DNA of 64,000 nucleotides from Clostridia bacterium (GTDB taxonomy: Bacteria > Bacillota > Clostridia > Christensenellales > SZUA-584): contig JABGQS010000002.1 of the NCBI GenBank assembly GCA_018648645.1, forward strand, positions 1 to 64,000, in the 5' to 3' direction. Below, one piece after another: positions 2,207 through 60,472 of the stretch. The first letter of the stretch is position 1. Every line of letters starts with the position of its first letter. The notes under the pieces are model-generated. The model was not told where the DNA came from. It searched no databases and saw only the letters and a list, made by a program, of their open reading frames with translations. A program made the translations under genes and the position numbers.

Positions 2207-3520
2207 CTATACGCGTACTGCCCGAATACCTTTGAGCAGGCAATAGTCCTCTATCTGTCGGCTTAAGTCGCCGTAGGCTATCGCGAAGTGTTGACCAGCG
2301 TAGTTTTTGACGAGGTCATTAACATCGCCGTCGAGAAGAACGTCGAGCGCCGGCATGTAGCCTTGGCGCTTTTGCGTTGGCTGACCTTGGCCTGTGAAAT
2401 AGACGATGTGGTAGCTGCCGATGTCCTCGACCATGCGCATGACCGTGACGCGCTCGGGACGCATCACGAAACTGTTTTGAATACCTGTGAAGCCGGGGTG
2501 GGGCATGAAGTTGGTGATTTGCGGGTTATCGCCCATTGAGAATGGGAGGAAGCCACACGAGCTTAGCTTTAGCGTGTTGCCTTCGTGGTTCATGGCGTCG
2601 CCGTATGTGACGACATTGCCGGAGAGAAGGTGCAGTATCATCATGGAGACGGTGTTCATCATGTCGCCCTCGCACGAGCCGACTATGCCCATATCGGACA
2701 GCGACGAAACGGGCACGCACGCGACCATGCCGTACTCTTTGCTGAACTCGTACTGGCACTTTACGTTCATGGCAGCAAGACCCTGCTTGTCGCAGATGTC
2801 TTTTAGCGCGAAGCTGAGGTTTGCCGCTTTGTTCAGGAAATCGTCTGATACGTCGTCCGCGATTTTTGCGCGAGCACGCAGCCAGTCGATGGTATTGTCT
2901 CTGTCGGCTTCTGAAACCGCTTCGGCGCGGTTGATTAGCGTGTATGAGTCCATTTGGACGACCTCTGGACCGATGCGGGTGCGAAGCAGCACGTGGTCGA
3001 AAGTGCCTGTGTATATGCTCATGGATGTGTAGCCAACGAGACCGATGCGCGTGCGTTTCATGACGCTCTCGCAAACAGCCGCTTTGGCGAATGAGACCAC
3101 TTCGTCCACAGTCGCGTCATCATCACAGCCGCCCAAGATCGCTTTGTATTTGTAGCCGACTCTGTCCATCACGCCCTTGAACATGGCGAACGAGACGTAT
3201 GAGCCTGTGCTCTCCAAGACACCATCCATTTCGAACATGCCAAAGCCCCAAAGGCACATCGGCAGGTGCTCGACCTCGCGGATGACCGACATGGCGTTTG
3301 GACATTCTATCCATGTGCCCATGAAAATGATGACACCGTCGACATCGGCCTGCAAAAGCGCTTTGCCCGCCGCCTGAGCGTTTATGTGGTTGGTGACCGG
3401 ACCCGGAACAGCGAACACTTCTATGCCGCGCGCGGTTAAGCTGTCCACTGCTGTTTCTGCCATATTGATCGCGTTGTCGTCCACGTAATCCTCGTGGCAG
3501 ATGTTTACAAAGCCTATCAT
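2207..3520 (-). CDS. L-fucose/L-arabinose isomerase-like protein
   Basis: 437 residues with the overall plan of the FucI/AraA isomerase superfamily: an N-terminal Rossmann-like region (MIGFVNICHEDYVDD, with VDGVIIFMGTW), a middle domain and a C-terminal beta domain (EGDMMNTVSMMILHLLSGN; PHPGFTGIQNSFVMRPERVT). Such enzymes interconvert aldoses and ketoses, and several members of this subgroup have no proven substrate. The start at 3520 is chosen over 3532 because GAGG lies 7 bases before it. The cyclase-family gene is 78 bases upstream on the same strand, so the two may be co-transcribed. Exact sugar unknown. Confidence 0.75.
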   Translation of the reverse strand: MIGFVNICHEDYVDDNAINMAETAVDSLTARGIEVFAVPGPVTNHINAQAAGKALLQADVDGVIIFMGTWIECPNAMSVIREVEHLPMCLWGFGMFEMDGVLESTGSYVSFAMFKGVMDRVGYKYKAILGGCDDDATVDEVVSFAKAAVCESVMKRTRIGLVGYTSMSIYTGTFDHVLLRTRIGPEVVQMDSYTLINRAEAVSEADRDNTIDWLRARAKIADDVSDDFLNKAANLSFALKDICDKQGLAAMNVKCQYEFSKEYGMVACVPVSSLSDMGIVGSCEGDMMNTVSMMILHLLSGNVVTYGDAMNHEGNTLKLSSCGFLPFSMGDNPQITNFMPHPGFTGIQNSFVMRPERVTVMRMVEDIGSYHIVYFTGQGQPTQKRQGYMPALDVLLDGDVNDLVKNYAGQHFAIAYGDLSRQIEDYCLLKGIRAVRV

Positions 3521-3598
3521 ATGATACCTCATTTCGAGTTGTGTGATTTCAAGTTTATTATAATACTCGGCTGTGTTTTGAGCAAGATGTACTTTGCG

Positions 3599-9187: not shown

Positions 9188-9196
9188 GGTGAAGTT

Positions 9197-13880: not shown

Positions 13881-13894
13881 GTGTGTCTCCTTGT

Positions 13895-14683: not shown

Positions 14684-15960
14684 TTAGTCTCCTCTATGAT
14701 TACTCCAACGCCGTCCGGGATGACGACGATATCTTCCCTGCTGCCGAGCAGCTCGTCCGCGATTCTGAGCGCCTGCTCGATGGAGGTTGCGTGCGTCATG
14801 TACATGTCTGTGACGAGTTTTGGCTCGACATGACTGCTAACGAGAATGACCGCTTTGCACTTTTGAAGCACACGCGCCAAGATTTGCGCTTCCCATTGGT
14901 CGGGCAGGGTGTTTGACGGGTCGATAGCGCCTATTCGCTGTGCTACGTCGCCAACGCTACTTGATTGCGTGAACCAGTTGTAGAAGCCTTCTCCCCCATG
15001 TCCGTTGATGCAGGATGCGACGACGATAATTACGCCGCCTGGCTTAACGCAGCTTTCGGCAGCTGTCATGGACTTGACTGCTTGGTATATGTTTTGGTCG
15101 AGCGGGTATCCTCCGTTTGAAGTGATGAGCAGGTTTGCGTGGACTGCGCCTACGCTTGCGTGTGCTTTGAGGCTCTCGCAGCCCGTTTCGTGCGCTGTAA
15201 CACTATCGCCCGCAAACGCTGCGGTGATTTTTTTGTTTTCGTCGAGTGTAACATTCAAAATAAATGCAAGCCCGACTTGTTTTGCTGCGTATACCATGTC
15301 GGCGTGCATGGGGTTGTTTTCTATCACGCCGGTGCGCGCGTTTTGGTGCGCGATGAATTTGGCGTTGTGGTTGTACATTATGGTGTCGGCGCTGCAGATG
15401 CCGGGCAGTATACTTTTGCGCCCGCCCGAGTAGCCAGCGAAAAAGTGCGGCTCGATAAAGCCTTCGGCAACGATTAGGTCTGCCCAGTCTACGAGCTTGT
15501 TGATTTTAAGCTCTCCGCCGGAGGGAAGGGTGCCCTTACCCACTATCGCGGAAGCGTCAAACGCATCGTGCACTATGATGTCCTCGTTTTCGCATATCGT
15601 TTCGCCGAAACGTTCGCGCATCTCGCCCGGCGTGGTGGCTCTGTGAAAGCCGGTTGCGATGAGTATTTTGACAGCTATATCGGGATTGTGTTTTCTCACC
15701 TCGCTTAGCAGCAGCGGCATTGTGATACGGCTTGGCACCGGGCGAGTGTGGTCGCTGGTGATTATGAGCACGCTGCGTTTGCCGCGCGCGAGGTTGCAAA
15801 GACGCTCTGATGCGATTGGGCTGCTAAGTGCGTTTGTAACAATCTGCGATTCACTAACGATCCGCTTTTTGTGCGCTTGTGGGGTTAGCACCGCTTTGAT
15901 GCGACGCTCCGCGATGTCCGCGCTCATGAAGTCTTTGTAATATGGAATGTTGATCTTCAT
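14680..15960 (-). CDS. larA: Nickel-pincer lactate racemase family protein
   Basis: 426 residues, the length of LarA. It shows SDHTRPVPSRI, ATGFHRATTPGEM, and the cofactor region EGFIEPHFFAGYSGGRKS with ILPG, which includes the Lys that forms the thioamide link to the nickel pincer nucleotide, then a further His in MYNHNAKF. Racemises D- and L-lactate or another 2-hydroxyacid, so both isomers can enter the stereospecific LctD. The maturation genes larB, larC and larE are not in the window and would have to be elsewhere. First gene of a five-gene operon. Confidence 0.88.
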   Translation of the reverse strand: MKINIPYYKDFMSADIAERRIKAVLTPQAHKKRIVSESQIVTNALSSPIASERLCNLARGKRSVLIITSDHTRPVPSRITMPLLLSEVRKHNPDIAVKILIATGFHRATTPGEMRERFGETICENEDIIVHDAFDASAIVGKGTLPSGGELKINKLVDWADLIVAEGFIEPHFFAGYSGGRKSILPGICSADTIMYNHNAKFIAHQNARTGVIENNPMHADMVYAAKQVGLAFILNVTLDENKKITAAFAGDSVTAHETGCESLKAHASVGAVHANLLITSNGGYPLDQNIYQAVKSMTAAESCVKPGGVIIVVASCINGHGGEGFYNWFTQSSSVGDVAQRIGAIDPSNTLPDQWEAQILARVLQKCKAVILVSSHVEPKLVTDMYMTHATSIEQALRIADELLGSREDIVVIPDGVGVIIEETK

Positions 15961-20981: not shown

Positions 20982-21007
20982 GCGGGCGAACGATGTTCGC
21001 CCCTACA
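20982..21007 (+). repeat. Short palindromic intergenic repeat, copy 2
   Basis: GGGCGAAC-GAT-GTTCGCCC followed by CTACA, as at 19635. Just upstream lies another palindrome-poor stretch (20932-20970, CTTTGACTGCGCTCACTACG) of the kind often found dispersed between genes in Clostridia. Confidence 0.75.
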
Positions 21008-21057
21008 TTGTTTTCGGTTGTTGTCGAGTGCGTGGAAAGAGAATATTGTATTCGAAA

Positions 21058-21096
21058 ACACGAGCTCTTGTTATAGAACGAGCGCTCGTGTATTTT
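21058..21096. terminator. Terminator between convergent genes
   Basis: ACACGAGC and GCTCGTGT arms with an 18-base loop that carries a smaller stem, then ATTTTT on the plus strand. Confidence 0.65.
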
Positions 21097-21151
21097 TGGT
21101 GTTGTTGTACCTATGTTACGCTTGATCGATACTAAGGATATGCTGTGCTGA

Positions 21152-22372
21152 CTAACCGAGATTGTCAAAGTCGAGCGTGTCGAGCCAAAGCAGATACTCT
21201 TCGCTGAGCTGCGCTTTTGTCAGATCGAGAATGCTCATGATTACCTCGTCGGCAGTTTTTTGGTTTTGCTGCTCGAAGGTTTTGTTTAGTGTGCTGTCGT
21301 GGAAAGGCTTTTTGCCCGCTTCGTAGAATAATTTCATCAGCGTGTCGTGCCCGTAGGTTTCGCTGATGTATCGGACAATCATATAGCTCGTGTTGTAATA
21401 GTTTCTGATTTGCTGCGAGGATAGATCGCTGCCCAAATCGGTCGATTCGAGGAATTCTATTGTGAACGATACGTTTTTCTTAGATAAATCCGAAAGCGTA
21501 GATGAGAACTCGAGACCGTAGAACGAGGAGCCGTCGTACATGGCGATGCCTTCGAGCATCCAAACGGGCAGGTTGTTGTTACATATTCGAATGGAGATGT
21601 GGTGCACGAGCTCGTGCTGGACTACGCCCGGGTAACCTGCGTACTCCTTTGGATGACCTGTAAATATCTTTAGCGATTCGTCCGGCTCGGACCAGCCGGT
21701 AAACAGCCATGGGTTTGCCGGTATGCAGCGCTGTCGCAGCATTTCGCGATCGAAGAACAGCTTCATCTCGTAATCGTCGAGTGGCTTTAGTTCGTAAATA
21801 CCGTCGAGATTATCAAAAGCAGCATCCAGCATTTGTACAAACTCAGCAACTCTAGTTTCACCCTCCATATATTTCACAACAAATCTGTCGGTTTCAAACT
21901 CCTCAAAATGGTAGCCGTAGTCCATCCATTTGCCGTGCTCGAATTTAAAAAGCAGCGGGTATTCGATGTCGAAGCTCTCAGAGAATGCGCGGTGCTTTTG
22001 CCTGATGGTGACGACACCCGTTAGCTCGTCAAGCATCCGGGTTGAGAGAATCTGCAAGGACACATCGCTAATAGCCGAATCGATCATGTTCTCGAACCAT
22101 CGCTCCTGCTCGTTGTAGAAGAACTGGTTGTTTCTTGTTATGACGCTCATGTATAGGTCGTAATCCTGCGTTTGAATAGCAGTCAGTCTATCTTCCAGAA
22201 TAGCAACAATTGCCTTCTCAAAAGAGGTGTCCTCGTCATCTGACGATACAGCGGGTGTTGATTCTTTTGGGGGCTTGGTTTCGACTACGGTTGTGGTGTC
22301 TACCGGGCTGCAGCCGATAACTATAACGATAATTATGATTATCGATATCAAAAATCGCAACTTGCTATTCAT
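21152..22372 (-). CDS. Gluzincin-type metallopeptidase lipoprotein
   Basis: 406 residues. Signal peptide with a long Ile/Val-rich core and lipobox VIGC (Cys21), then a Pro/Ser/Thr/Asp linker to about residue 50. Residues 51-165 resemble an NTF2/SnoaL-like domain. The zinc site is HELVHH (His253, Glu254, His257) with the third ligand Glu274 in WMLEGIAMYDG, the peptidase-MA-like arrangement. Likely a cell-surface peptidase or peptidase-like protein of unknown target. Monocistronic. Confidence in the fold is high, in substrate none. Confidence 0.82.
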   Translation of the reverse strand: MNSKLRFLISIIIIIVIVIGCSPVDTTTVVETKPPKESTPAVSSDDEDTSFEKAIVAILEDRLTAIQTQDYDLYMSVITRNNQFFYNEQERWFENMIDSAISDVSLQILSTRMLDELTGVVTIRQKHRAFSESFDIEYPLLFKFEHGKWMDYGYHFEEFETDRFVVKYMEGETRVAEFVQMLDAAFDNLDGIYELKPLDDYEMKLFFDREMLRQRCIPANPWLFTGWSEPDESLKIFTGHPKEYAGYPGVVQHELVHHISIRICNNNLPVWMLEGIAMYDGSSFYGLEFSSTLSDLSKKNVSFTIEFLESTDLGSDLSSQQIRNYYNTSYMIVRYISETYGHDTLMKLFYEAGKKPFHDSTLNKTFEQQNQKTADEVIMSILDLTKAQLSEEYLLWLDTLDFDNLG

Positions 22373-22453
22373 TGTCGTCTCCTCTGCCTCGCTGTTCTAT
22401 AGTCGATAAAAAACATCTAAAATTCATCAAGAATCTGCGCTTGTGCCGGTTGC

Positions 22454-23908
22454 TTAGTTGGGGCCAAAGGCACGTTGCTCCAACGCTTTGTACTGCTCGT
22501 ACTTGTTTGCGTAGTAGTCGCGCTTGGCGCTGTTCGGCTCGTAGATTTTAGCGATGGAAACTTTGCCGGACGCAACCGCTTCGTTCGCATAGACGCCGCT
22601 GCCCATGCCCGCGAGCATCGCTGCGCCGCTGCACGCGACTTCGTGAGAGCGCAGTATTTTGACGCGGGTGTTGGTGACGTCTGCGATAATCTCGCACCAC
22701 GCGGACGAGCTTGCTCCGCCGCCAAAAACACGCAGCTCGGTTGTGCCTTCCATAACCTCTAGGTTTTCCTCTATCTGCATCGCTATGCCTTCGAAAAGCG
22801 CACGCACGAAATCCTGCCTTGTGGTGTTGAGGTGGATGCCGCTGTACATGCCGGACGAGTTGTAGTGCAGATTGGGCGAGCCGTTGCCCACAAAGTGCGG
22901 GTAGAAGCTGAGCTCGGTTTTATAGTCGTCGGCGTTTTCTACCATGTCGCTCATCTGCTCGAATGTGTAGTCCTCGAAGAAGGTTTCTTTCAGCCAGCGC
23001 ATGCACGCCGCCGCTGTGCCGAGCACGCCTTCGGTGAACCACGTGTTCTCGAACAGGAATGAGAAGGATGGTATGCGCATGTCTGAGTCTTTGTGAGGGG
23101 AGCTCCAGCGCTTGCCGATTGCCGTTGCTGTGCCGAGCGAGATGGTCGCTATCCCTTCGTCGATGCCAGCGCCGAACGCTGCACATTTTTGGTCTTGACC
23201 ACCGACGGTGACCACCACGTTATCCGGCAACCCAAGCTCTGTTGCAACGCTTTTCATAATGGTGCCGACTGCCGTTGCGCTGTATGCCAGATTGGGCAGC
23301 TTGTTTTTGTCCACGCCGAATTTGTCGATGATGCCATTGTCCCAAGTTTGGGCGACTATATCGTACATCATTGTGCCGCCTGCGAGCGTGTGGTCGGTGA
23401 CCGGCACTCCGCAAAGCTTTGCCACCACGAAATCGTGCGGCAGCAGCAGTTTGTACGCTTTGTCGTAAACATCCGGTTCGTTTTGCATCAGCCACATGAT
23501 TTTGGGCAGGGTGTAGAACGCTTTGGTACTTTTGCCCGTTATATCGTACATTTGCTGCTCGGAGTATTGCTGCTGAATCTGCGCAATCTGCTCCTCTGCC
23601 CGCCCATCCAGCCATGAGAAAGCGTTGCGAATCGGGTTGAAGTTGTTGTCTACCGGCACGTATGATATGCCTTGCGAGCTTATAGAGATACCGCGCACTC
23701 TGCCGCCGCTGACCTGCGACATCGACTCGACGATGGTTTGCTTTGTAAGCGACCACCACAAATTCGCGTCCTGCTCTATCGCCTTGCTGGACAAGTTGAT
23801 GAGCGGATATGCTTTGTAGCTTTTCCCGAGCTCGTTTAAATCCGTATCGTAGACCATGCTGCGAATGCCCATTGTGCCGAGGTCTATACCAATTAGCAAT
23901 TCTTTCAT
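22454..23908 (-). CDS. FGGY-family carbohydrate kinase (xylulokinase-like)
   Basis: 484 residues, family length. ATP-binding start GIDLGTMGIRSMVYD, sugar-binding SWLDGRAEEQI, VTVGGQDQKCAAFGAG, and the C-terminal adenosine motif GGGASSSAWCEIIADVTNT. These kinases phosphorylate xylulose, ribulose, glycerol, fuculose or similar; the substrate is not readable. Last gene of a tight minus-strand operon (gaps of 9, 22 and 17 bases) after ceramidase-fold, NagA-like and PIG-L-like genes, so its sugar is probably a polyol or ketose released in that pathway. Confidence 0.88.
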   Translation of the reverse strand: MKELLIGIDLGTMGIRSMVYDTDLNELGKSYKAYPLINLSSKAIEQDANLWWSLTKQTIVESMSQVSGGRVRGISISSQGISYVPVDNNFNPIRNAFSWLDGRAEEQIAQIQQQYSEQQMYDITGKSTKAFYTLPKIMWLMQNEPDVYDKAYKLLLPHDFVVAKLCGVPVTDHTLAGGTMMYDIVAQTWDNGIIDKFGVDKNKLPNLAYSATAVGTIMKSVATELGLPDNVVVTVGGQDQKCAAFGAGIDEGIATISLGTATAIGKRWSSPHKDSDMRIPSFSFLFENTWFTEGVLGTAAACMRWLKETFFEDYTFEQMSDMVENADDYKTELSFYPHFVGNGSPNLHYNSSGMYSGIHLNTTRQDFVRALFEGIAMQIEENLEVMEGTTELRVFGGGASSSAWCEIIADVTNTRVKILRSHEVACSGAAMLAGMGSGVYANEAVASGKVSIAKIYEPNSAKRDYYANKYEQYKALEQRAFGPN

Positions 23909-23925
23909 GTGTGCTCTCCCTATGA

Positions 23926-24768
23926 TTAATCTTCTTCGTATAAGTCGCTTGCGCGGATTTTTGAGTAGTCTACGTGTGCTGTCAGCGGGTCGGTGTTGTC
24001 GGCGTATTTTGTGACCGGGAAACCGTCGTGCGTTTCAGGGTAGTAGCGCATGTAGCCTTCTGCGAAGTTGACTTTGGCGGAAGTGCCATACGCGCCGAAT
24101 ATTGCTTCCATGGTTTTGATGGACACGTCTTTGGTGTGTGCTTGGGACGCGAACTGCTCGACAGCCTTTAGCTTGCGCGCTGCCACGGGCGTGATGTCTA
24201 CGTATATGTCGCTTTTGAGACCTTGATAGTTTAGACAGTCTCGGTTGAACGACTGAACTTTGGAGAAGTAAATCTGCTTGACGTGATGCGCGTCGATGCC
24301 GTCGAGGTTTTTGACGAACTCGCCCGCGCGGAGCACCGCCGACATCGCCATCGCTGACGCCATTTCGTGACAACCTGCATACGGGCCTCCCGAGAAATGA
24401 TCCATCACGACTACATCCGGTTTCTCTTCTGCAACGAGCATCGAAATGCGCGTGATGATCTGCGGATCGGGCACGGTCAGGTTGTCCTCTTCGTCGAAGC
24501 AGATGACTTTTTGGATGCCGAGGATGTCTGCCGCGCGCTGCATTTCCTGCTTTTTGGCTTCTATCAACTCTTCGTGTCCGGCATTAATTATGGATTTGTC
24601 AGGGTTCTCTTTCCTTTGTTCTTCTACGTATTTGTTGGGGTGGATGCGCGCGCCGTGAGAAATGATGATTGCAACGACGTCGTCGCCTTTGTCTACGTGC
24701 ATTGCCAGTGCACCGCCGCAGTCTGCGATGATGTCCGCAGGGTGTGCATAGATTGCCATTACTTTCAT
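23926..24768 (-). CDS. PIG-L/LmbE-family deacetylase-like protein with HPAD motif
   Basis: 280 residues. PIG-L zinc deacetylases remove acetyl from GlcNAc-like groups and start with AHPDDE. Here the N-terminus reads AIYAHPADIIADCGGALA, so the first Asp, the general base in MshB-type enzymes, is Ala, while the metal-binding His and second Asp are kept. A later conserved segment is VVMDHFSGGPYAGCHEMASA. The DDE change marks a distinct subgroup with altered or lost chemistry. Sits between a NagA-like and an FGGY gene in one operon. Confidence 0.8.
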   Translation of the reverse strand: MKVMAIYAHPADIIADCGGALAMHVDKGDDVVAIIISHGARIHPNKYVEEQRKENPDKSIINAGHEELIEAKKQEMQRAADILGIQKVICFDEEDNLTVPDPQIITRISMLVAEEKPDVVVMDHFSGGPYAGCHEMASAMAMSAVLRAGEFVKNLDGIDAHHVKQIYFSKVQSFNRDCLNYQGLKSDIYVDITPVAARKLKAVEQFASQAHTKDVSIKTMEAIFGAYGTSAKVNFAEGYMRYYPETHDGFPVTKYADNTDPLTAHVDYSKIRASDLYEED

Positions 24769-24790
24769 AATTTTTCTCCCTGTTTAATTA

Positions 24791-25915
24791 TTATTTTTTT
24801 TGAACTCCGTCGAGGATTACTTGCGAAACGTTAATCATGTCGTCCACGATTACAAGATTCGCTTTTTTGCCTTTGGAGATGCTGCCGATTTCGCTGCTCA
24901 GATCGAGCAACTTTGCCGGGTTGAGTGAGCCGAACTTGAACACGTCGCAGATCCCGGCGCCTGTGTGCTTCATCATGTTTTGGCATGCTGTGGCGACGGT
25001 TAGCGCGCTGCCCGCGAGGTCGCCGTTATCGTCGAAGCGCAAGTCGGGCGCGTCGCTTTGCCCATCGCTGCCAAACTCGGTCGAGTCGGAAATAAGTATA
25101 ATTTTGTCCTTGCCTTTGGTTTTGAGCGCAAGGCGAAGGTTGTATTCGTTTACGTGCACTGCTCTGGAGTCTACGATAAGCTCTGCGTAAATATCGTCGC
25201 ATAGCATGACCGCTTCGTCAGGACCGGCGCCTTTTACGCCGAGCATAGTCGAAATACTTGCCGTTGCGTTGTGGTGGTGCGTTTGCAGCCGTAAACCGTG
25301 CGGCAGGAAGCGGTAAATCTGCTCGGGCAGAGCCTGCGAATGCGCAAGCGCGAAGATGACTCCCGGTGCTTTTGCGTCCTGCACAAATTGGTCTATACCA
25401 CTCAGCTCGGGCGAGAGACACCAGACTTTGACGTATCCGCGCCCTGCGTCGATCAGGCGGCTGTACTGCGCTTTGTCTATCGCGCCTTTATACTTGCTGT
25501 TCTTGGCGTCGCCGCCGTATTTTGGGTTGAGATACGGTCCTTCCATGTATATGCCTTTGACGATGCTGCCGCGCTCTATCTCATCTATAAGCACCTGTGT
25601 GCCGCTTAGAAGCTGTTCGAGCGACAGGTTGTTGTACATCGTTGCGAGCATGGTGGTTGTGCCGTTTTGCAAAAAGAACTCGGCAGCCTCGCTTGGGTTC
25701 TTGTGAAACCAGTATCCGCCGCCGCCGTGAGCATGGATGTCTACCAGCCCGGGCGCGGTGTATTTACCCTGCGCGTCGATAACCTTTGACTCGCTTGGCA
25801 CAGAAACATCGCTGCGCTCGCCAAAATCGGCGATGAGTCCGCCATCCAGCAAAACCACGCCGTCCCATATCAGGTTGTCGGGAAGAACAATTTTTGTGTT
25901 TGTAATCGCTATCAT
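24791..25915 (-). CDS. NagA-like amidohydrolase
   Basis: 374 residues of the amidohydrolase superfamily closest in plan to N-acetylglucosamine-6-phosphate deacetylase. Motifs: GLVDIHAHGGGG, YMEGPYLNPKYGG, ALAHSQALPE, QTHHHNATA and LISDSTEFG. It differs much from the plain nagA at 9197, for example TEFG in place of the usual GMPDG region, so the N-acyl sugar or other amide is probably different. Between the ceramidase-fold and PIG-L genes with gaps under 25 bases; GGAGCGAGCA ribosome site. Confidence 0.82.
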   Translation of the reverse strand: MIAITNTKIVLPDNLIWDGVVLLDGGLIADFGERSDVSVPSESKVIDAQGKYTAPGLVDIHAHGGGGYWFHKNPSEAAEFFLQNGTTTMLATMYNNLSLEQLLSGTQVLIDEIERGSIVKGIYMEGPYLNPKYGGDAKNSKYKGAIDKAQYSRLIDAGRGYVKVWCLSPELSGIDQFVQDAKAPGVIFALAHSQALPEQIYRFLPHGLRLQTHHHNATASISTMLGVKGAGPDEAVMLCDDIYAELIVDSRAVHVNEYNLRLALKTKGKDKIILISDSTEFGSDGQSDAPDLRFDDNGDLAGSALTVATACQNMMKHTGAGICDVFKFGSLNPAKLLDLSSEIGSISKGKKANLVIVDDMINVSQVILDGVQKK

Positions 25916-25924
25916 TGCTCGCTC

Positions 25925-27232
25925 CTACTTTTCCGTTAACATGTCGATAATCGTCTCGACCATATCGTAACCAAACGAAGGATCCAGCAACGATGCGCCG
26001 GTCTCGTACCCGCCGAGCGCGTAGCTCTCTTTTGTGCAGACATAGCCCGGAAGACAGCCACCCGCGAGAGTCGTCACAAACGTGTTTGCATACGGTGAGC
26101 GGTTTTTGATCTCGAGCGCGAAATCTACGAAAACTTCGCCCGGCATGCTGACTATGCGATGCTCGCCGATGGACAGCACCTGCAGCTCTGCCGGGTCTTC
26201 CTCGTTTAGCAGCCGCAAATCGCCCTTTGCGTTCGCTTTCGTAAGCCCGAGAAAATCTTCTGCACCAAGGTGTTTTAGGTTTGCGTTCTGCACATCGAGG
26301 TATGGCGCATCCGCAGCTTTCATATCCTCGTATATTTTGCCGAATTTGGCTACGTCCGCTTTAAGCTGATCCATTGGCGGAATGTGTCTTGTTTTGATTT
26401 TCATTGTTTCTGATTGTGCATCAATTTTCATATCTGTTGAGAACTGCGCCGACTCTATCGCTTTTTGTGCGGCTTTGCCGATCTGCTCACCTATACGCTT
26501 TGCTTCGTTAAAATCCTGACCTTGACGGAAATAGCGCGAGCTTTGATTGCCCGAAGCGCCTTGAGCATAGCAAAGCGAAGCCTGTGGATACTTCTCTTTG
26601 AGATACGTGCGCGTGTATCCCGGGAAGTCGGCTGTGACGACAGTGCTGTCCTCGTGTATAACCGTCGGGTGAAGCGCGTAGTTGACATATATGCCGCGCA
26701 CAACGTCGTTCATATCAGCGACCGCTATTGTGCAGACGTCGGTGTCTGCCGGACCTTTGGGGTCTCGCCTGTTGCCGCCGATGCCTTGCTCCGGTCCGCA
26801 GTATCCTTTTGTGACCGCGACCTGCGCATCGAACGCGCCGCTCTTTGCCTGCACAATCGCCGAAACGAGTTTATTAAGCAGCTCGTTCACATAGCCCATG
26901 TCCTCGTTGTCGTAGAGCGTTTCGTCATCTATGCCGCCCGCCGCCCAAGGACCGCTGTGCGTGTGCTCGCAGCTGATCATGATGGATTCAGGTGCAATTC
27001 CGCACTCGGCGAAAACGCGGTCTCGCACCGCCGTGACGTATTTTTTTGAGAAGAACAGTAGATCCATCGCGACTACTGCGATTTCTTTGACTCCGTCGGT
27101 GAGGTAGATACAGCATGCGCAAAGCGGGTCGTGCACACCTGTGTTGTGCCGTGGATAGTGCGGATAGCCGCCCAACGGCAGACCTTGCTTTGGCGAAATG
27201 TCTCGGATTTCTACTCCTGCTTTGATGCTCAT
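25925..27232 (-). CDS. Neutral/alkaline ceramidase-fold hydrolase (N-terminal domain type)
   Basis: 435 residues, matching only the catalytic N-terminal domain of neutral ceramidases (PF04734) and lacking the C-terminal Ig-like domain. Zinc-site segments SCEHTHSGPWA and NYALHPTVI are visible. The region where ceramidases carry the nucleophilic Ser (GDVSPN) reads AQGASGNQSSRYFR, so ceramide hydrolysis is uncertain. No signal peptide, so cytoplasmic. Such cytoplasmic proteins occur in sugar-catabolic clusters with unknown function. First gene of the tight four-gene group, preceded by a 119-base gap. Confidence 0.78.
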   Translation of the reverse strand: MSIKAGVEIRDISPKQGLPLGGYPHYPRHNTGVHDPLCACCIYLTDGVKEIAVVAMDLLFFSKKYVTAVRDRVFAECGIAPESIMISCEHTHSGPWAAGGIDDETLYDNEDMGYVNELLNKLVSAIVQAKSGAFDAQVAVTKGYCGPEQGIGGNRRDPKGPADTDVCTIAVADMNDVVRGIYVNYALHPTVIHEDSTVVTADFPGYTRTYLKEKYPQASLCYAQGASGNQSSRYFRQGQDFNEAKRIGEQIGKAAQKAIESAQFSTDMKIDAQSETMKIKTRHIPPMDQLKADVAKFGKIYEDMKAADAPYLDVQNANLKHLGAEDFLGLTKANAKGDLRLLNEEDPAELQVLSIGEHRIVSMPGEVFVDFALEIKNRSPYANTFVTTLAGGCLPGYVCTKESYALGGYETGASLLDPSFGYDMVETIIDMLTEK

Positions 27233-27351
27233 ATGTAAACTCCTTTGTTTATTAGATTTCTTCTATAAAATAATTTGGCTTGCTTGCGAAAAGATTATAC
27301 CACGATGCCTGCCTTGCGACAAATGTTTTGTCAGCAGACTTTAAATTGCCT

Positions 27352-29499
27352 CTATGTTTTGTATTTTATGTATATCGGACTGGACCACGCCATGTTGCCG
27401 TCCGCTTGGGTAACCTTGACCCAATATGCGTTGACGCCCTTTTCTATGTTGCCGTCGGTGAAGCTGAATGCTGCTTGCTTGCTGCTCTGTGCCAGCGCGA
27501 AGTCGATCTGGACTTGCTGGTTGATGCCGCCCGCCTGCTTGATGATTTTACGCCCGGTCAGCTCGCTCATTTTGATGGTGAAGGACGTTTGCGGCGAGGA
27601 GAAGGTCAGCGTTGTGTCGTTGTCGTAATCAAGAGCCAGCTCAATTCCGTCGATGTCGCCCGACGTGTTTGACTTCCATGTAACGAGCTGGTTGGACATT
27701 TGCGTGACACCTTCGTCCGCTTGATTGAACGCGACCGCTTTGCAGCCCGCGATTCTGCCGCCCTGCACCGACAGGCTTCCGTCCCACTTGACTTTCTTGG
27801 GTCTGCTTTTTGACCGCACGCCGCTCCAGAGGATGCGGACGATGTTTTTGTTTTTTGGCTGTGCATCGGCGTATGAGTAAATCGTTTTGGTGTTTCTCAT
27901 GATTTCGATGTCCATTATGTCGCCCGTTGCAAGCGCCTCGATGTCGAGAGTCGGCGGGAAATTCTGAAAAATCTCGTCGCCCATCATCGCTGTTCCGCTG
28001 GTTACTTTGAGTATCATGCGCTCGCCTGTAGTGCCATAGGTGTGCCGCGAATTGAACGCCTCCCAAAGCGATTCTCGTGTAAGCTCGTCCGCATAGACAC
28101 CGGTGTATCCGCCGATGACATCGAAGGACGCGAGGCTGCGCGATGTTTGCCGCGTGGGGTATGACAGCCCCGGTCTGCACGTATGGTCGTCGCTTGCCGC
28201 GATGACGCCGAGTTTTAAACCCTTATCAAGCGCGTCTTTGAAGAACCACTCGAATGTGCCGTGGTGTGAGTGGATCTCGAGCAGGTGAACCAAATCTTTG
28301 CTGCACATATCTAGGTTGCCGTATCGCCCTCCAACGTGCGGCACCGCCATCACATCTTCGCGACCTTTGAACTGCTTCCAAAGCTCTGTGATCGGGCTGC
28401 GGTCGCTCCCGTCGGTGTTTTCCATGCCGATTTGCCAGTGATAGCTTCTGTGTATCAGTTGGTCGTCATATAAATAATAGATGTTGTAATCGCCGCCCGC
28501 CGGGGTTGTGCCCGACCACTCGTAACCGAGGAACGTAACGAATTGGCTCGGCTTGTGATATTGTTTGACCTTTTTGCAGACGTCTGCCCACAGCTCGTCC
28601 GTGACTTGAAAATCGTTGCCCTGCCACGCGCAAAAGTCGAGCCACGCGCAGTCGCGCCCGAACGAAAAGTATTCATCCAGCGTGCCAGTGCCGACCGTGC
28701 GTTTTGTCTGCCCGTGCATATCGCCCCAATAAAGCGTTTTGTCCGGCGCGTCTTCTGTACACACGATTGGGTTGCTTACTGCGTGCAGTCCGCTATGCTC
28801 GTCAATAACCTCGAAGTAGAATGTGCCTTGCCGTGCTAGCGAAGCGGTGATGCGACCGATTCCGTTATTTACGATGACGCTGCGTGCTTGTCCTTCCAGC
28901 ATAACCGCTGCGTCGGCGGTGTATAATTTGGCGATATTACCGAAGCTGTCGATTGCGCGTACCAGAACATCGAAGGGGTCGCCAATAATCACGCTTGACG
29001 GCACAACGATTTGAAGCGCATCGGCGTAACCGCCAGTAATTTTGATGTACGGCTGGTCGTCTGTCTCGACGAAGTTTCCGCTGCCTGCGCAGTCGACCAA
29101 CACCTTGAACAGATGCTCGGTTTCGGCAAAGGTTTGGATGCGGTAGCCTGCGCCCTCGCCGGAGGGACTGCCGTATTGCACATGGATTTTGTCGCCGGGA
29201 GACAGCGAGCCGTCTGAAACTTTGATGCTGATGCAGCTTTTGAAGGGGCGGATGTATCGGTTGGGGACGTAGCTTGCGGTGACCTTTGCGGCAACATCTG
29301 CGCTGACCTTGACGAAGCCCGATTGGTTCGGGTCGTCAAATTGTGGTATCGCCGAGTCGCAGACGTCTCTGCGCGCGATCAGAATTTCTCCGCTGTCGTC
29401 CACGCCGTAAGCGCCAGTCTCGTAAGCGATAGTGAAGCACCCGGATGACCCCGCCGTCATTTCTTTGATATTGATATTTGCTTTGCCCACTTTTTGCAT
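27352..29499 (-). CDS. DUF3604 protein (PHP-like metal hydrolase fold)
   Basis: 715 residues, cytoplasmic. Residues 1-235 are beta-rich. From about 240 a PHP-like metal site unfolds: YWGDMHGQTKRT, DFCAWQGND, VPHVGGRYGN, LEIHSHHGTFEW and IAASDDHTCRPGLS. The C-terminal 200 residues are beta-sandwich and end AYWVKVTQADGNMAWSSPIY. This matches the DUF3604 family, poorly characterised but often beside sugar and sulfatase genes. It heads the 22.4-29.5 kb cluster; GGAGACAACT ribosome site. Substrate unknown, probably a phosphoester or similar group. Confidence 0.8.
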   Translation of the reverse strand: MQKVGKANINIKEMTAGSSGCFTIAYETGAYGVDDSGEILIARRDVCDSAIPQFDDPNQSGFVKVSADVAAKVTASYVPNRYIRPFKSCISIKVSDGSLSPGDKIHVQYGSPSGEGAGYRIQTFAETEHLFKVLVDCAGSGNFVETDDQPYIKITGGYADALQIVVPSSVIIGDPFDVLVRAIDSFGNIAKLYTADAAVMLEGQARSVIVNNGIGRITASLARQGTFYFEVIDEHSGLHAVSNPIVCTEDAPDKTLYWGDMHGQTKRTVGTGTLDEYFSFGRDCAWLDFCAWQGNDFQVTDELWADVCKKVKQYHKPSQFVTFLGYEWSGTTPAGGDYNIYYLYDDQLIHRSYHWQIGMENTDGSDRSPITELWKQFKGREDVMAVPHVGGRYGNLDMCSKDLVHLLEIHSHHGTFEWFFKDALDKGLKLGVIAASDDHTCRPGLSYPTRQTSRSLASFDVIGGYTGVYADELTRESLWEAFNSRHTYGTTGERMILKVTSGTAMMGDEIFQNFPPTLDIEALATGDIMDIEIMRNTKTIYSYADAQPKNKNIVRILWSGVRSKSRPKKVKWDGSLSVQGGRIAGCKAVAFNQADEGVTQMSNQLVTWKSNTSGDIDGIELALDYDNDTTLTFSSPQTSFTIKMSELTGRKIIKQAGGINQQVQIDFALAQSSKQAAFSFTDGNIEKGVNAYWVKVTQADGNMAWSSPIYIKYKT

Positions 29500-29526
29500 A
29501 GTTGTCTCCTTTGCGCTAAATCGAAT

Positions 29527-30108
29527 TTATTTTGTCTTGCTGTACAGCATAACGTGCGTATAGTCGTTTATTGCGATACGAACTATCAGCTCTTTCACGT
29601 CCCGAATTATTGTATATCCCTCTTTTTTGTATAGCTTGATTGCACCGCTGTTTTTTGCCAGCACTGCGAGCAGATAGTGTTTGAATTGCGTTTGGGCATA
29701 TACATGATTCATCAGCTTCGTTGCGATGCCGCGACGTCTGTGGCCACTGTCTACACAAAGAAAGTCGATGTATCCTTCGTCATCCGCTTTGGCGAACGGT
29801 TTGCCGAAAAGCGACTTAAAGAAACGATAGTTTATTGCGCCGAGGATGCTGCCAAACTGTGATTTGCATACCGATTTGCTGAAACACATCGCGCTGCTTT
29901 GCGAATTTGAGCAGGTTATGAGACCGGCAACATCTTCGCCATCGAGATACGCGTATGCGAACTGCGGCAGAAACGCGTCGCCGAACACGACTTGCAATTT
30001 TTTCATATTCTTGCCTTTTTTGTCGATCATATCGAAGAAGCTCTCGCCAAACACTGTGACAAATCGCTGCTTTTGCTCAAGGCTCAGCTCGCTTAGTTTA
30101 ACAATCAT
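29527..30108 (-). CDS. GNAT-family N-acetyltransferase
   Basis: 193 residues. The acetyl-CoA site is seen as IDFLCVDSGHRRRGIATKLMNHV (pyrophosphate loop RRRGIAT), followed by NSGAIKLYKKEGYTI, the usual C-terminal GNAT segment. Target unknown. The start overlaps the stop of the RNA methyltransferase gene by four bases (ATGA), so the two are translationally coupled. It ends 27 bases before DUF3604. Confidence 0.85.
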   Translation of the reverse strand: MIVKLSELSLEQKQRFVTVFGESFFDMIDKKGKNMKKLQVVFGDAFLPQFAYAYLDGEDVAGLITCSNSQSSAMCFSKSVCKSQFGSILGAINYRFFKSLFGKPFAKADDEGYIDFLCVDSGHRRRGIATKLMNHVYAQTQFKHYLLAVLAKNSGAIKLYKKEGYTIIRDVKELIVRIAINDYTHVMLYSKTK

Positions 30109-31157
30109 AATATCTCCTTTTTCGCAATGCTGATGTCTCTTTTTATTGACGCGTCTACTCTGTGTTCAAACTGGTTATATATGTCCTCGTCAAGCACAGT
30201 TAGACCAGCCTTGCTCAGCAAATCGTTTGCCTTTGTTTTGCTGATGACGTTTGTGTTGTAGGAGATGACGAGCACACCGCCGCGCTTCAAAACATCGCGC
30301 CAAGCGGGAAGGCTGGCTGAAAGCAACTGCTCGGGGTTGCGGGTGAAGCCTTTGCTTTGCCGTTGCTGTTTGCTGGAGTGCTGTATGCCGTACGGCAAAT
30401 CGACAACGATTATATCGAAGTAGTTTTTCTTGTAATAAAAGTTTGTAAGAGCAGAGTCGCCATCTACGATCTCGAGCTTTTGAGTGTTGCCATCTGCGAA
30501 ATCCTGCTTGTGTGCAAATTCGAAGTGTGATGCTTTACCGATTTGTTTTTTGGTTTGCTTTGATGTTATCGTTCTTTTTTGCGTGGTGTGTTTGTACTTC
30601 TCGCGCTCGAGGTATTTTTTGAAGAATATGCCGATTTCGTTCGTGTATTTTGTCGATATCTCTATGCCGTATACATCGAAGCCGCGCGTAAGTCCGCAGA
30701 ACAGCGTTGTTCCTTTACCTGCCATCGGGTCGAGCAGACGCAGGTTCGTATCGTTGGTCGTGCTGCACGTTTGGGCGGCGACGTTAATCATCATTTTGGT
30801 GAAGGTTTCGTTGGTTTTGCCTTGATACTTGAGGATCGTTGTTATTTTATCATCGAAGTATTGTGGACTTAAGTTCTCTATAGGCAGCAAGTATGTGTCG
30901 CCGTCTATTTCGACAACCTCGAAAATCACAAAAGCAAAAGACAAGTTGTACAGCAGAGCAATTTCATGCCGGGACAGTTTACTCTCGCAGGTAAATGCAG
31001 CGCAGACAACGCCTTTTATGTTCTCGATAGCTGGCGAGCTGCACTTGCTATCAAAGCCCGATGCAGTGATCGTCAGCTCGGCAACAGAGAGTTTTTGCGA
31101 TTCCATATAGTAAACTCTGTTGTGTCCGGGGCTTAATTGTATTGCGTATTTGCTCAT
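30105..31157 (-). CDS. Trm11/THUMP-like RNA N2-methyltransferase
   Basis: 350 residues. A SAM-binding Rossmann domain begins near residue 145 with LLDPMAGKGTTLFCGL, followed by VYGIEISTKYTNE and the catalytic motif IVVDLPYGIQHS, a DLPYG variant of the (N/D)PPY motif. N-terminal residues 1-130 are a non-catalytic domain (YAIQLSPGHNRVYY). The set fits G10/Trm11-type tRNA guanosine N2-methyltransferases or a close family. The internal start at 31157 is chosen over 31226 because AAGAAGCA precedes it and homologues start MSKYAIQLSPG-like. Lys-rich insert near residues 195-215. Confidence 0.72.
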   Translation of the reverse strand: MSKYAIQLSPGHNRVYYMESQKLSVAELTITASGFDSKCSSPAIENIKGVVCAAFTCESKLSRHEIALLYNLSFAFVIFEVVEIDGDTYLLPIENLSPQYFDDKITTILKYQGKTNETFTKMMINVAAQTCSTTNDTNLRLLDPMAGKGTTLFCGLTRGFDVYGIEISTKYTNEIGIFFKKYLEREKYKHTTQKRTITSKQTKKQIGKASHFEFAHKQDFADGNTQKLEIVDGDSALTNFYYKKNYFDIIVVDLPYGIQHSSKQQRQSKGFTRNPEQLLSASLPAWRDVLKRGGVLVISYNTNVISKTKANDLLSKAGLTVLDEDIYNQFEHRVDASIKRDISIAKKEIL

Positions 31158-31215
31158 ATTGCTTCTTTCTTTGGTGTTTTGTATATTATACCATTTTGGG
31201 CGCTTATTCTCCACA

Positions 31216-31255
31216 TAAAAAAGCAAGAGAAACCGATATTAGTTTCCCTTGCTTT
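31216..31255 (-). terminator. Terminator for the HpcH/HpaI aldolase gene
   Basis: Arms AAGCAAGAGAAAC and GTTTCCCTTGCTT with one mismatch. On the minus strand it is followed by a T-rich tail (TTTTTTATG). Confidence 0.75.
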
Positions 31256-31272
31256 GCTGTTTAGTCGTAGTG

Positions 31273-32055
31273 TTATTTTCTGCTGTCGGTGATTGCGTTA
31301 AACTTCTCAATGCTGTCCCTATAGTAGCTCCCCAGACCCACGAGGTCTACCGCGATGTTGAGGAAGTTGTACCCCATGTCTATGAGGTCTCCGCAGTTGT
31401 CCCACGAGCAGACAACGCCCGCCATTTTGCCGTGCTTGGCAGCGAGCTTTGGAATTTGCTCGTACAGGTCGAGAACCTCTCTATTGGTGGTAAAGTTGCC
31501 GATGTCGCCGACGCTCTGGCTGTAGTCACCCGGCCCGTATAGTAGCATGTCGATGCCGTCGAGCGCGCAAATTCTCTCGATATCGGGCACTACTTCTATG
31601 TCTTCGATCATGACGACTACCTTCTTTTCGCTGTTGGCGTGGTCTATGTAATCGTTAAGGCCGGTCGTGAGGTAGTCTGAATCTGCGCCGATACTGTTCA
31701 ATGGACGCAGACCGATTGGCGCAAACCGTGTGATTTTCTGAATCTCCTTCGCGTCTTCATAGCTCATGCAGTGCGGAATAATAATGCCTGTGGCGTCAAG
31801 CTCTATCGGCTTGATGAGTTGGCTGTAGCTGCCGCGCTCTGTGCGAATCAGTATGTCGGTGTCGTGTGCTTTTGCGGCGAGAATCATGGTCTCGATTTTG
31901 CTCCAGTCGTTGGCCGTGTGCTCGTTGCATATCCAAAGGCAGTCGAACCCGCTGATGCACGCAAGCTCTACAAGACGATGGTCGTTGCTGTGCAGCATGG
32001 CGCATTTTACCACTTCTCCGCTTTGCATCTTGGGCCACATTTTGCTTTTTCTCAT
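31273..32055 (-). CDS. HpcH/HpaI-family aldolase or citrate-lyase-beta-like protein
   Basis: 260 residues. TIM-barrel class II aldolase with the metal Glu in MIEDIEVVPDIERI and the metal Asp in LLYGPGDYSQSVG. The N-terminal half has MWPKMQSGEVVKCAML and WICNEHTANDW. Family enzymes cleave 2-keto-4-hydroxy acids to pyruvate and an aldehyde. Strong GGAGGA site at the ATG 32055. A second, more distant member is at 56778. Close to the 22-29 kb sugar cluster but with its own terminator, so a link is only positional. Confidence 0.83.
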   Translation of the reverse strand: MRKSKMWPKMQSGEVVKCAMLHSNDHRLVELACISGFDCLWICNEHTANDWSKIETMILAAKAHDTDILIRTERGSYSQLIKPIELDATGIIIPHCMSYEDAKEIQKITRFAPIGLRPLNSIGADSDYLTTGLNDYIDHANSEKKVVVMIEDIEVVPDIERICALDGIDMLLYGPGDYSQSVGDIGNFTTNREVLDLYEQIPKLAAKHGKMAGVVCSWDNCGDLIDMGYNFLNIAVDLVGLGSYYRDSIEKFNAITDSRK

Positions 32056-32144
32056 GTTGTCCTCCGGTTATATTTTTAGATTGATTGGGTTGGCGTGTTT
32101 TAAGTTCATGCGCATTATACCACCTAAGGGGAGGAAGTGCCATA

Positions 32145-32182
32145 ATAAAAAAGCAAGAGCGGATTGTTTATGCCGCTCTTGC
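32145..32182 (-). terminator. Terminator for the ABC exporter operon
   Basis: Perfect arms GCAAGAGCGG and CCGCTCTTGC with a 10-base loop, then a T-run on the minus strand. Confidence 0.85.
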
Positions 32183-32206
32183 TGTGATGCTGGTGTTAAT
32201 TGATAT

Positions 32207-34240
32207 TTAAACGTCCGTGTTTCCTGTGAACTGACTGTTATAAAGGTCGGCGTAGAAGCCGTTCATCGCCATCAGCGCTTTGTGGTTGCCTTGCTCGATG
32301 ACTTCGCCCTCGTTCATGACGAGGATGGTGGACGCGTCGCGGATGGTCGAGAGCCTGTGCGCGATGACGAAGTTGGTTCGCCCTTTCATCAACTCGATCA
32401 TGGCGCTTTGGATGTATTCCTCTGTGCGCGTGTCTACGCTGCTTGTGGCTTCGTCAAGAATGAGCACGGGTGGGTCTGCGAGCAGTGCGCGCGCGATGGT
32501 CAGCAGCTGCTTCTGCCCTTGCGAGATGTTGGACGCTTCCTCGTTGAGCACTGTGTCGTAGCCGTCGGGCAGCGTTCTGATGAAGTGGTCTGCGTGCGCC
32601 ATCTTTGCAGCGCGAACGACGTCTTCCTTGTTAGCGTTGTCGTTGCCGTAGCGTATGTTTTGCTCTATAGTGCCGCCAAACAGCCAAGTGTCCTGGAGCA
32701 CCATGCCGAACTCTTTGCGCAGGTTCTCTCTTGGCACTGTGGTTATGTCTACACCGTCCACTGTGATACGGCCGCTGTCCACTTCGTAGAAGCGCATCAG
32801 CAGGTTGACGAGCGTCGTTTTGCCCGCGCCCGTGGGGCCGACAATTGCGACAACGTCGCCCGGCGCAACCGAGAGGTTCATGTCCTTGATGATTGTGATA
32901 CCCGGGTCGTAGCCGAATTTGACGTGCTCGAACGTGACTGCGCCTTTCGGACTGTCGATATAGTTTTCTGTAGAGTCTGCGCTCATTTCGTCTTCGTCTA
33001 GAATCTCGAACACGCGCTCTGCCGCCGCTACTGTCGATTGCATTACGTTGGCAATCTGCGCTGTTTGCGCTATCGGCTGCGAGAACGTGCGTGAATATTG
33101 TATGAATGCCTGGACACCGCCGATGGTCATTCTGCCGTTGATTACCATCACACCGCCAATTACGCATACGCATACGTATGAGAAGTTGTTGATGAGCGTC
33201 ATAAGCGGCATCATGATGCCCGAGAGGAACTGCGCCTTCCAGCCGACGCCATACAATCGCTCGTTCGTTTCGTCGAAGGTTGCCACGCTGGAAGCTTCTT
33301 TACCAAACGCTTTGACGACCATGTGTCCTGAGTACATTTCCTCGACGTGACCGTTGATGTTGCCGATTTCTTTCTGCTGCTGCTTAAAGTATTTCTGTGA
33401 GCGCTTCACAATAAGCTGAATGAGCACGAAGCTGATTGGGAGCACGAGCAGCACGACCAGCGTGATTATCCACGATATCGTGAACATCATGACTGAAATA
33501 CCGATAATCAGCGTGACTGCGGAAAACACTTGCGTTACGCCTTGCTGTAATGTGGACGAAACTGTGTCGATATCGTTGGTGACGCGCGATAGAATTTCGC
33601 CGTGCGTGCGACCGTCGAAGTATTTAAGCGGGAGACGAGAGAGCTTTGCCTCTACCTCTTTTCGCATGTCGTACACAACCGTCTGCGACGTTTTTGCCAT
33701 CACAAACTGCATCACAAAGTTAAGCACTGCGCTTAGTACGTATAGTATCAGCACCAGCCATATGATACGCGCGATGGCTTTGAAATCGATCTGCAGCGTG
33801 CTTGCCGCTTCCATATCTGTCATTGCCTGTTGCAGCACTGCCAGCTGGTCAGCATTGTTCATATCGACGTTTGCCATCACGAGGCTTTGGGCTTCGCTTT
33901 CGCTAAGCTCGCCGGATCTAAGCTCTGTTACAACGTCTTCGGGCAGTATTTCTGTCAGCCCTTCCATCGCCTGCGCTTGCGCAAACGTCGGCGCAAACAG
34001 CTCTGTCGTTGCTGTACCTAATAGCTTTGGTCCGAATATCGAGAACACTGCGCCGCCTATCGCCATGATGATGACGATTACGAGCGCGATTTTGTGGCGA
34101 CCGAGATACGTCATCAGTCGCTTGAGACCGCCTTTGAAGTCTTTGGCTTTCTCGACGTGGCCACCGCCCATGTGTCCGCCTGGGCCTCTGCCCGGTCCGC
34201 TTCTCTGTGGAGTTTTTCTCGTTTCTGTGTTATCACTCAT
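32207..34240 (-). CDS. ABC exporter half-transporter (heterodimer subunit, longer partner)
   Basis: 677 residues: long Gly/Arg/His-rich N-terminal tail, six-helix membrane domain (TM1 near IALVIVIIMAIGGAVFSIFG), then ATPase with Walker A GPTGAGKTT, a signature NISQGQKQ (the usual SGGQ is SQGQ) and Walker B LILDEATSSVD. A large insert between TM1 and TM2 (about residues 80-150) has acidic helical sequence. It is the partner of the gene starting at 35964; the pair is coupled by an ATGA overlap. Likely exports drugs or amphiphiles as a heterodimer. Confidence 0.88.
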   Translation of the reverse strand: MSDNTETRKTPQRSGPGRGPGGHMGGGHVEKAKDFKGGLKRLMTYLGRHKIALVIVIIMAIGGAVFSIFGPKLLGTATTELFAPTFAQAQAMEGLTEILPEDVVTELRSGELSESEAQSLVMANVDMNNADQLAVLQQAMTDMEAASTLQIDFKAIARIIWLVLILYVLSAVLNFVMQFVMAKTSQTVVYDMRKEVEAKLSRLPLKYFDGRTHGEILSRVTNDIDTVSSTLQQGVTQVFSAVTLIIGISVMMFTISWIITLVVLLVLPISFVLIQLIVKRSQKYFKQQQKEIGNINGHVEEMYSGHMVVKAFGKEASSVATFDETNERLYGVGWKAQFLSGIMMPLMTLINNFSYVCVCVIGGVMVINGRMTIGGVQAFIQYSRTFSQPIAQTAQIANVMQSTVAAAERVFEILDEDEMSADSTENYIDSPKGAVTFEHVKFGYDPGITIIKDMNLSVAPGDVVAIVGPTGAGKTTLVNLLMRFYEVDSGRITVDGVDITTVPRENLRKEFGMVLQDTWLFGGTIEQNIRYGNDNANKEDVVRAAKMAHADHFIRTLPDGYDTVLNEEASNISQGQKQLLTIARALLADPPVLILDEATSSVDTRTEEYIQSAMIELMKGRTNFVIAHRLSTIRDASTILVMNEGEVIEQGNHKALMAMNGFYADLYNSQFTGNTDV

Positions 34241-60397: not shown

Positions 60398-60472
60398 AGC
60401 AGTCACCTTTCAACGTGCGTTTTGTCGTTTGATACGCTCATTATAGTTGCGAGGGGCGTAATAGTAAATATG

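Follow-up and report, generated by a model that had tools for sequence, protein, structure and literature searches.

Background

Do five neighbouring genes, encoding a DUF3604 protein, a ceramidase-fold protein, a NagA-like amidohydrolase, a PIG-L-fold protein and an FGGY sugar kinase, serve a single catabolic pathway and, if so, on what kind of substrate? The genes lie on the minus strand at 22454-29499 of the window, which spans the initial 64 kb of contig C12 in the genome of a Clostridia bacterium (2.67 Mb, 77 contigs; labelled G000), and a literature search for this combination of families gave no match, with DUF3604 mentioned only in an unrelated context. An interpretation made earlier from the DNA letters alone (the sequence-only reading) had treated all five as one coherent unit. 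By comparing gene neighbourhoods across about 300 genomes of the same order, we arrive at a narrower answer, to which we assign a probability of roughly 0.55, namely that four of the genes (all but the DUF3604 gene) form one operon for the catabolism of an N-acylated amino sugar, or of an amino-polyol closely akin to one, that the cell imports. The operon would be a join, made in this genome, of two recurrent modules, one of deacylase/deaminase genes and one built on an FGGY kinase.

Results and discussion

Two recurrent gene modules

Families were called with Pfam at the curated cut-offs and with NCBIfam at the equivalog cut-offs. The five open reading frames (ORFs) are present as the sequence-only reading described them, and their family assignments hold at the Pfam level (FGGY_N/FGGY_C, PIG-L, Amidohydro_1, Ceramidase_alk and DUF3604, all above cut-off); none of the five proteins reaches an NCBIfam equivalog cut-off.

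Relatives of the NagA-like protein were recovered from G000 itself (contigs C19 and C42, 50% and 38% identity to the window protein), from G094 (C5, 47%; C91, 37%) and from G016 (C20, 45%; C14, 41%), with later matches in G498 (C3, 44%) and G584 (C14, 42%, plus a broken copy on C8). The broken copy (locus L106, 7400-8371) contains several in-frame stops, the C14 gene being its intact relative. A ceramidase-fold gene directly adjoins the NagA-like gene on G016 C20 (split in two ORFs), G016 C14 and G498 C3, and a NagB-like gene is adjacent or close to it on G000 C19, G094 C91, G094 C5, G498 C3 and G584 C14. Taking about 3 ceramidase-fold genes per 2000, our own rough arithmetic puts the chance of ceramidase-fold adjacency at three of the eight non-window loci near 1e-6. 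The recurrent association of a NagA-like gene with a ceramidase-fold gene and/or a divergent NagB-like gene, which we call module A, is thus observed in G016 (twice), G498, G584, G094 (twice) and at a paralogous G000 locus. No Pfam family matches the NagB-like proteins, but in the PDB a profile built from them hits nothing except glucosamine-6-phosphate deaminases (4.7e-6). They keep the DE motif and, from GHIAF, the GH, with LPNPxP in place of the TGGTP phosphate loop.

In the case of the FGGY kinase, the closest relatives are encoded on G094 C91 (49% identity), G498 C24 (43%), G094 C5 (41%) and in G034 (35%), and a creatininase gene adjoins all four. The G094 and G498 clusters contain genes for ribose-type ATP-binding cassette (ABC) permeases and binding proteins (called by Pfam on G094 C91, otherwise read from translations), and SIS, TIM-family and DeoR-like genes also occur at the G034 and G094 C5 loci. 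Module B, i.e. a window-type FGGY gene with a creatininase gene, often accompanied by a ribose-type ABC importer, therefore recurs in G094 (twice), G034 and G498. Both G094 loci join the NagA-like/NagB-like genes with the FGGY/creatininase pair, and in G498 the two modules are found on different contigs. Modules A and B meet once more in the window operon, with the ceramidase-fold gene in the place of the creatininase gene; a search for a creatininase in G000 itself gave no match, an empty result that counts as weak evidence. The isomerase-like protein encoded elsewhere in the window (2207-3532) has relatives at the same kind of locus: one of 54% identity (438 amino acids, aa) in the NagA-like/FGGY cluster of G094 C91 and one of 48% near the FGGY/creatininase pair of G034.

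The unusual gene set is therefore at least partly coherent, in that homologues of the ceramidase-fold, NagA-like and FGGY genes recur together, shuffled, in independent genomes. The co-occurrence expected of all five families did not extend to PIG-L, nor to DUF3604 with three of the other four; DUF3604 is linked only indirectly, and neither it nor, probably, PIG-L is an equal member.

Organization of the locus

The gaps between the FGGY, PIG-L, NagA-like and ceramidase-fold genes measure 17, 22 and 9 bases, respectively, whereas 119 bases separate the ceramidase-fold gene from the DUF3604 gene, which lies only 27 bases from the GNAT gene upstream of it. Consensus matching over 21000-32400 yielded four promoter-like sites at 10/12 matches, three of which stand directly upstream of the aldolase, methyltransferase and ceramidase-fold genes, each with a TG before the -10 element (Table 1). 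The strong extended -10 site ahead of the ceramidase-fold gene falls inside the 119-base gap. A terminator-like stem of 15 pairs with a T run follows the HpaI aldolase gene; a terminator sought between the DUF3604 and ceramidase-fold genes was not found. The simplest reading of this layout is one of three transcription units, i.e. the aldolase gene, methyltransferase-GNAT-DUF3604 and ceramidase-NagA-like-PIG-L-FGGY, although transcripts may read through from DUF3604 into the four-gene operon. We infer co-transcription of these four genes from their spacing and the promoter-like site ahead of them. The single five-gene unit that had been proposed thereby shrinks to four genes, DUF3604 being set apart by distance, by the intervening promoter-like site and by its closeness to the GNAT gene.

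Table 1. Features of the locus and its surroundings (positions in the window)
Feature	Position	Strand	Matches and remarks
FGGY sugar kinase, 484 aa	22454..23908	-	FGGY_N/FGGY_C; TIGR01312 344 bits
PIG-L-fold protein, 280 aa, HPAD for HPDD	23926..24768	-	PF02585 62.2 bits
NagA-like amidohydrolase, 374 aa	24791..25915	-	Amidohydro_1; TIGR00221 174 bits
Ceramidase-fold amidase (predicted), 435 aa, opens the four-gene operon	25925..27232	-	PF04734 48.6 bits (cut-off 32.1)
Promoter-like site ahead of the ceramidase-fold gene, TTGTCG-17-TATAAT plus TG extension	27294..27322	-	10/12 matches
DUF3604 protein, 715 aa, probably a separate transcription unit	27352..29499	-	PF12228 59.9 bits
GNAT acetyltransferase, neighbour, upstream of DUF3604	29527..30108	-	PF00583
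RNA/DNA methyltransferase-like gene, neighbour, start probably 31160; promoter-like site 31213-31185	30105..31226	-	
HpcH/HpaI aldolase, neighbour; promoter-like site 32143-32114; terminator-like stem 31255-31220	31273..32055	-	PF03328
Fucose/arabinose isomerase-like protein	2207..3532	-	Sub-threshold Pfam matches only

Active sites of the deacylase candidates and the kinase

A profile alignment of the ceramidase-fold protein to the neutral ceramidase of Pseudomonas (2zws) places the window's ASGNQS on AGNLS with the Ser kept; we take this residue to be the neutral ceramidase nucleophile, Ser274 in precursor numbering. The zinc positions (His, His, Glu, Tyr) are conserved in all ceramidase-fold members where readable. 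Among ten such proteins only that of the window has Ser at the nucleophile position, the homologues having lost it (GDVN, GDVG etc.), so that the altered nucleophile ascribed to the window protein by the sequence-only reading belongs to its relatives instead. The protein thus resembles the neutral ceramidases (PF04734; 2zws, 4wgk) in its N-terminal catalytic domain, zinc ligands and Ser position, but it counts 435 aa against 646, its alignment stops at residue 462 of 2zws, it lacks the C-terminal domain, no signal peptide was seen, and its gene lies within a sugar operon. No member of the other families lies near the ceramidase-fold homologues in G036, G062, G069 and G087, and a single-protein scan of genome contigs with the ceramidase-fold query gave no match. 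Two tandem paralogues, both without the Ser, are encoded between ksgA-like and ftsH-like genes on G000 C11 (L011, 8265-10928).

The best NCBIfam match of the NagA-like protein is nagA (TIGR00221), at 174.4 bits under the cut-off of 225.65, and in a tree (built without the G498 C3, G584 C14 and G584 C8 copies) seven NagA-like proteins split from 12 true NagA proteins with support 100/100. The metal ligands and the catalytic Asp are kept (HxH, the E of EGP, H, H, and the D of (S/T)D). The alignment bears out the absence of GMPDG noted earlier: the clade has no GMPDG lid, nor the KKGAQ-type and FNGM/FNAM-type motifs. Near the phosphate-binding Arg of NagA (HREPG) the window protein has Lys, four of the seven have Arg and two have lost it, with a register that is uncertain by one residue; the conserved His of the HV motif is retained in most members. 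A loss of the phosphate Arg from the NagA-like protein had been considered and was dropped after alignment with the 12 true NagA proteins. The third NagA-like gene of the genome, on C42 (L078), stands among two class-III aminotransferase genes, an Amidohydro_2 gene, an SDR gene and an HpaI aldolase gene whose product is 44% identical to the window aldolase. The window also holds a true NagA (GMPDG) gene, in a row with NTP transferase, APH-type kinase and ROK genes at 5836-10309, which looks like an ordinary, separate amino-sugar salvage operon.

The FGGY kinases known so far have ketoses, polyols or aldonates as their substrates. That of the window has both FGGY domains in full length and appears ketose-kinase-like, as do the xylulokinases (5vm1); however, it scores below the XylB cut-off (TIGR01312, 344.4 against 380.25 bits) and its subfamily is linked to creatininase rather than to xylose isomerase.

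A possible pathway

The recurring deacylases, the NagB-like deaminase, the sugar importers and the ketose kinase are the reason for favouring amino-sugar catabolism. We infer both the substrate class and the order of steps as follows. Removal of N-acyl groups would fall to the ceramidase-fold protein (a Zn/Ser amidase), to the NagA-like protein (a metal amidohydrolase) or to both, the NagB-like deaminase-isomerase encoded on C19 beside a NagA-like paralogue would turn the amino sugar into a ketose, and the FGGY kinase would phosphorylate the ketose for entry into sugar-phosphate metabolism. The lost phosphate loop of the NagB-like proteins, together with the presence of a ketose-type kinase, suggests that phosphorylation comes last. 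The full scheme, in which deacylation and deamination take place on the unphosphorylated sugar, FGGY acts at the end and the ceramidase-fold and creatininase amidases are interchangeable first steps, is a tentative one that we consider somewhat improbable as a whole. The sphingoid or inositol conjugates guessed at earlier give way to amino-sugar chemistry, as is indicated by the partner genes that recur (NagB-like, ribose-type ABC, creatininase), and the phosphate removal that was part of the same guess needs no phosphatase, except possibly the PHP-fold DUF3604 protein.

As in canonical N-acetylglucosamine (GlcNAc) catabolism by NagA and NagB, an amidohydrolase-fold deacetylase is paired with a NagB-fold deaminase-isomerase, in the relatives and at C19. 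Nevertheless, the NagA-like proteins fall outside the NagA clade and have lost the lid, the NagB-like proteins are remote from NagB and have lost the phosphate loop, the place of the GlcNAc kinase or phosphotransferase system is taken by an FGGY kinase of ketose type, and there are additional proteins of the ceramidase-fold or creatininase kind. If the proposal is true, the known step order of GlcNAc catabolism is reversed, and the single-domain bacterial ceramidase-fold proteins, the NagA-like clade and the Pfam-unmatched NagB-like proteins, i.e. groups whose members in sugar operons are of unknown function, obtain their first testable context.

The PIG-L-fold and DUF3604 proteins

The HPAD motif of the PIG-L protein is real, and paralogues carry HPGD and HPAD. 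MshB-type deacetylases use the first Asp of HPDD as catalytic base; HPAD lacks it, and a classical deacetylase function of the window protein is improbable. The best PDB match of its subfamily profile is the hydratase GalB (5cgz, 1.3e-16, compared with 2.7e-14 for BshB), and Foldseek ties GalB with the deacetylases, from a weak model (pLDDT 59) that shows the family only. GalB, a 4-oxalomesaconate hydratase, shares the PIG-L fold and likewise has H-x-A-D replacing HPDD, but the identity is about 22% and genes for aromatic ring cleavage are not nearby. The PIG-L paralogues on G000 C2 and C13 and a G420 homologue have no partners in common. Beside the HPAD-type gene on C13 (L077, 1109-9566) lie five lipoprotein-like genes with a shared motif like EEYTKGVxLDxxYPEDDMP.

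The DUF3604 protein (AlphaFold2 model, pLDDT 88) consists of an Ig-like N-terminal part, a PHP-fold metal domain at about 254-510 and a C-terminal beta domain. The PHP domain matches TM0559 (2anu; 196 residues, 2.9 A) and BVU_3505 (3e38; 225 residues, 3.2 A) with Z 20.1. It shares this fold with these PHP phosphoesterases and with the CehA/McbA carbamate hydrolases (NF038032, 32.4 bits under a cut-off of 80), but its first motif is HGQ instead of HxH, as in 17 of 17 aligned DUF3604 proteins, and the Ig-like and C-terminal beta domains are extra. G000 has one copy, and the 247 other genomes of the order gave one distant match only. A pattern scan collected 29 related loci (about 17 full-length, at 33-61% identity) from Clostridia, Bathyarchaeota, Heimdallarchaeota, Chloroflexi, SAR324 and Spirochaetes; DUF3604 was rejected as an anchor for the cluster, the 29 loci having no ceramidase-fold, NagA-like or PIG-L neighbour. 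FGGY genes occur near DUF3604 at L032 (8.6 kb away), L041, L044 (truncated) and the more distant DUF3604 locus L029, and L041 and L044, from two distant Clostridia, also have creatininase and DeoC-family aldolase genes. The L044 gene (Oscillibacter valericigenes, 12195-12755) is cut to the N-terminal FGGY domain, 186 residues long, and lies between the DUF3604 and creatininase genes. The model points to a PHP-fold hydrolase, apparently expressed separately and only possibly a member of the pathway; for this protein, as for HPxD PIG-L proteins, proximity alone is no ground for a pathway assignment.

Weighing the alternatives

Several observations weigh against a four-gene amino-sugar operon. 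The complete set was found together in no other genome searched, the PIG-L gene co-occurs with the other cluster genes in none of them, and the closest family genomes (G001-G004) have no ceramidase-fold, NagA-like, FGGY or DUF3604 match at the thresholds used. The window cluster itself has neither a NagB-like gene nor an importer, and the neighbourhood of the C42 paralogue is quite different. The ceramidase-fold homologues that adjoin NagA-like genes are without the Ser nucleophile and may differ in role. Several of these points, with DUF3604 added to PIG-L as never linked to the rest, would also fit unrelated salvage hydrolases, strung together by chance or in this lineage only, that share a promoter and serve different pathways (amino-sugar salvage, pentulose phosphorylation, detoxification). 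We judge such a string unlikely, since in G016, G094, G498 and G584 genes of the ceramidase-fold, NagA-like, NagB-like and FGGY families repeatedly pair up, which chance would be very unlikely to produce.

The Lys/Arg near the phosphate site of NagA makes an unphosphorylated substrate of the NagA-like protein less certain, which again counts against the amino-sugar operon as drawn above. Together with the His of the HV motif, it agrees with a route through phosphorylated intermediates, in which the first step belongs to FGGY or some other kinase and the NagA-like protein deacetylates an N-acyl amino-sugar phosphate as in the classical NagA pathways; the substrate range of FGGY kinases, the missing GMPDG lid and the NagB-like partner's lack of a canonical phosphate loop make this route doubtful. 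We give equally little credence to the idea that all five genes serve a single pathway in which DUF3604 strips the substrate of a carbamate, ester or phosphate. At L041 and L044 DUF3604 orthologues do stand beside FGGY and creatininase, the family pair of module B, and the stretch between DUF3604 and the ceramidase-fold gene is free of a detectable terminator, but the four genes have their own promoter-like site, the closest DUF3604 orthologues (58-61%, L031-L033) have no ceramidase-fold, NagA-like or PIG-L gene nearby, the L041 kinase is only 26% identical to that of the window, and the archaeal and Chloroflexi orthologues lie among unrelated genes. The four-gene amino-sugar operon is therefore the reading that we prefer.

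Other genes in the window

At 11309-15960 a LarA-like gene, a pair of electron-transfer-flavoprotein-like genes and the gene for a GlcD-type FAD oxidase follow in a row (only the FAD oxidase was checked against Pfam), an arrangement that resembles a lactate racemase with an electron-bifurcating lactate dehydrogenase. A gene resembling the MTTB family of trimethylamine methyltransferases is located at 58994-60406.

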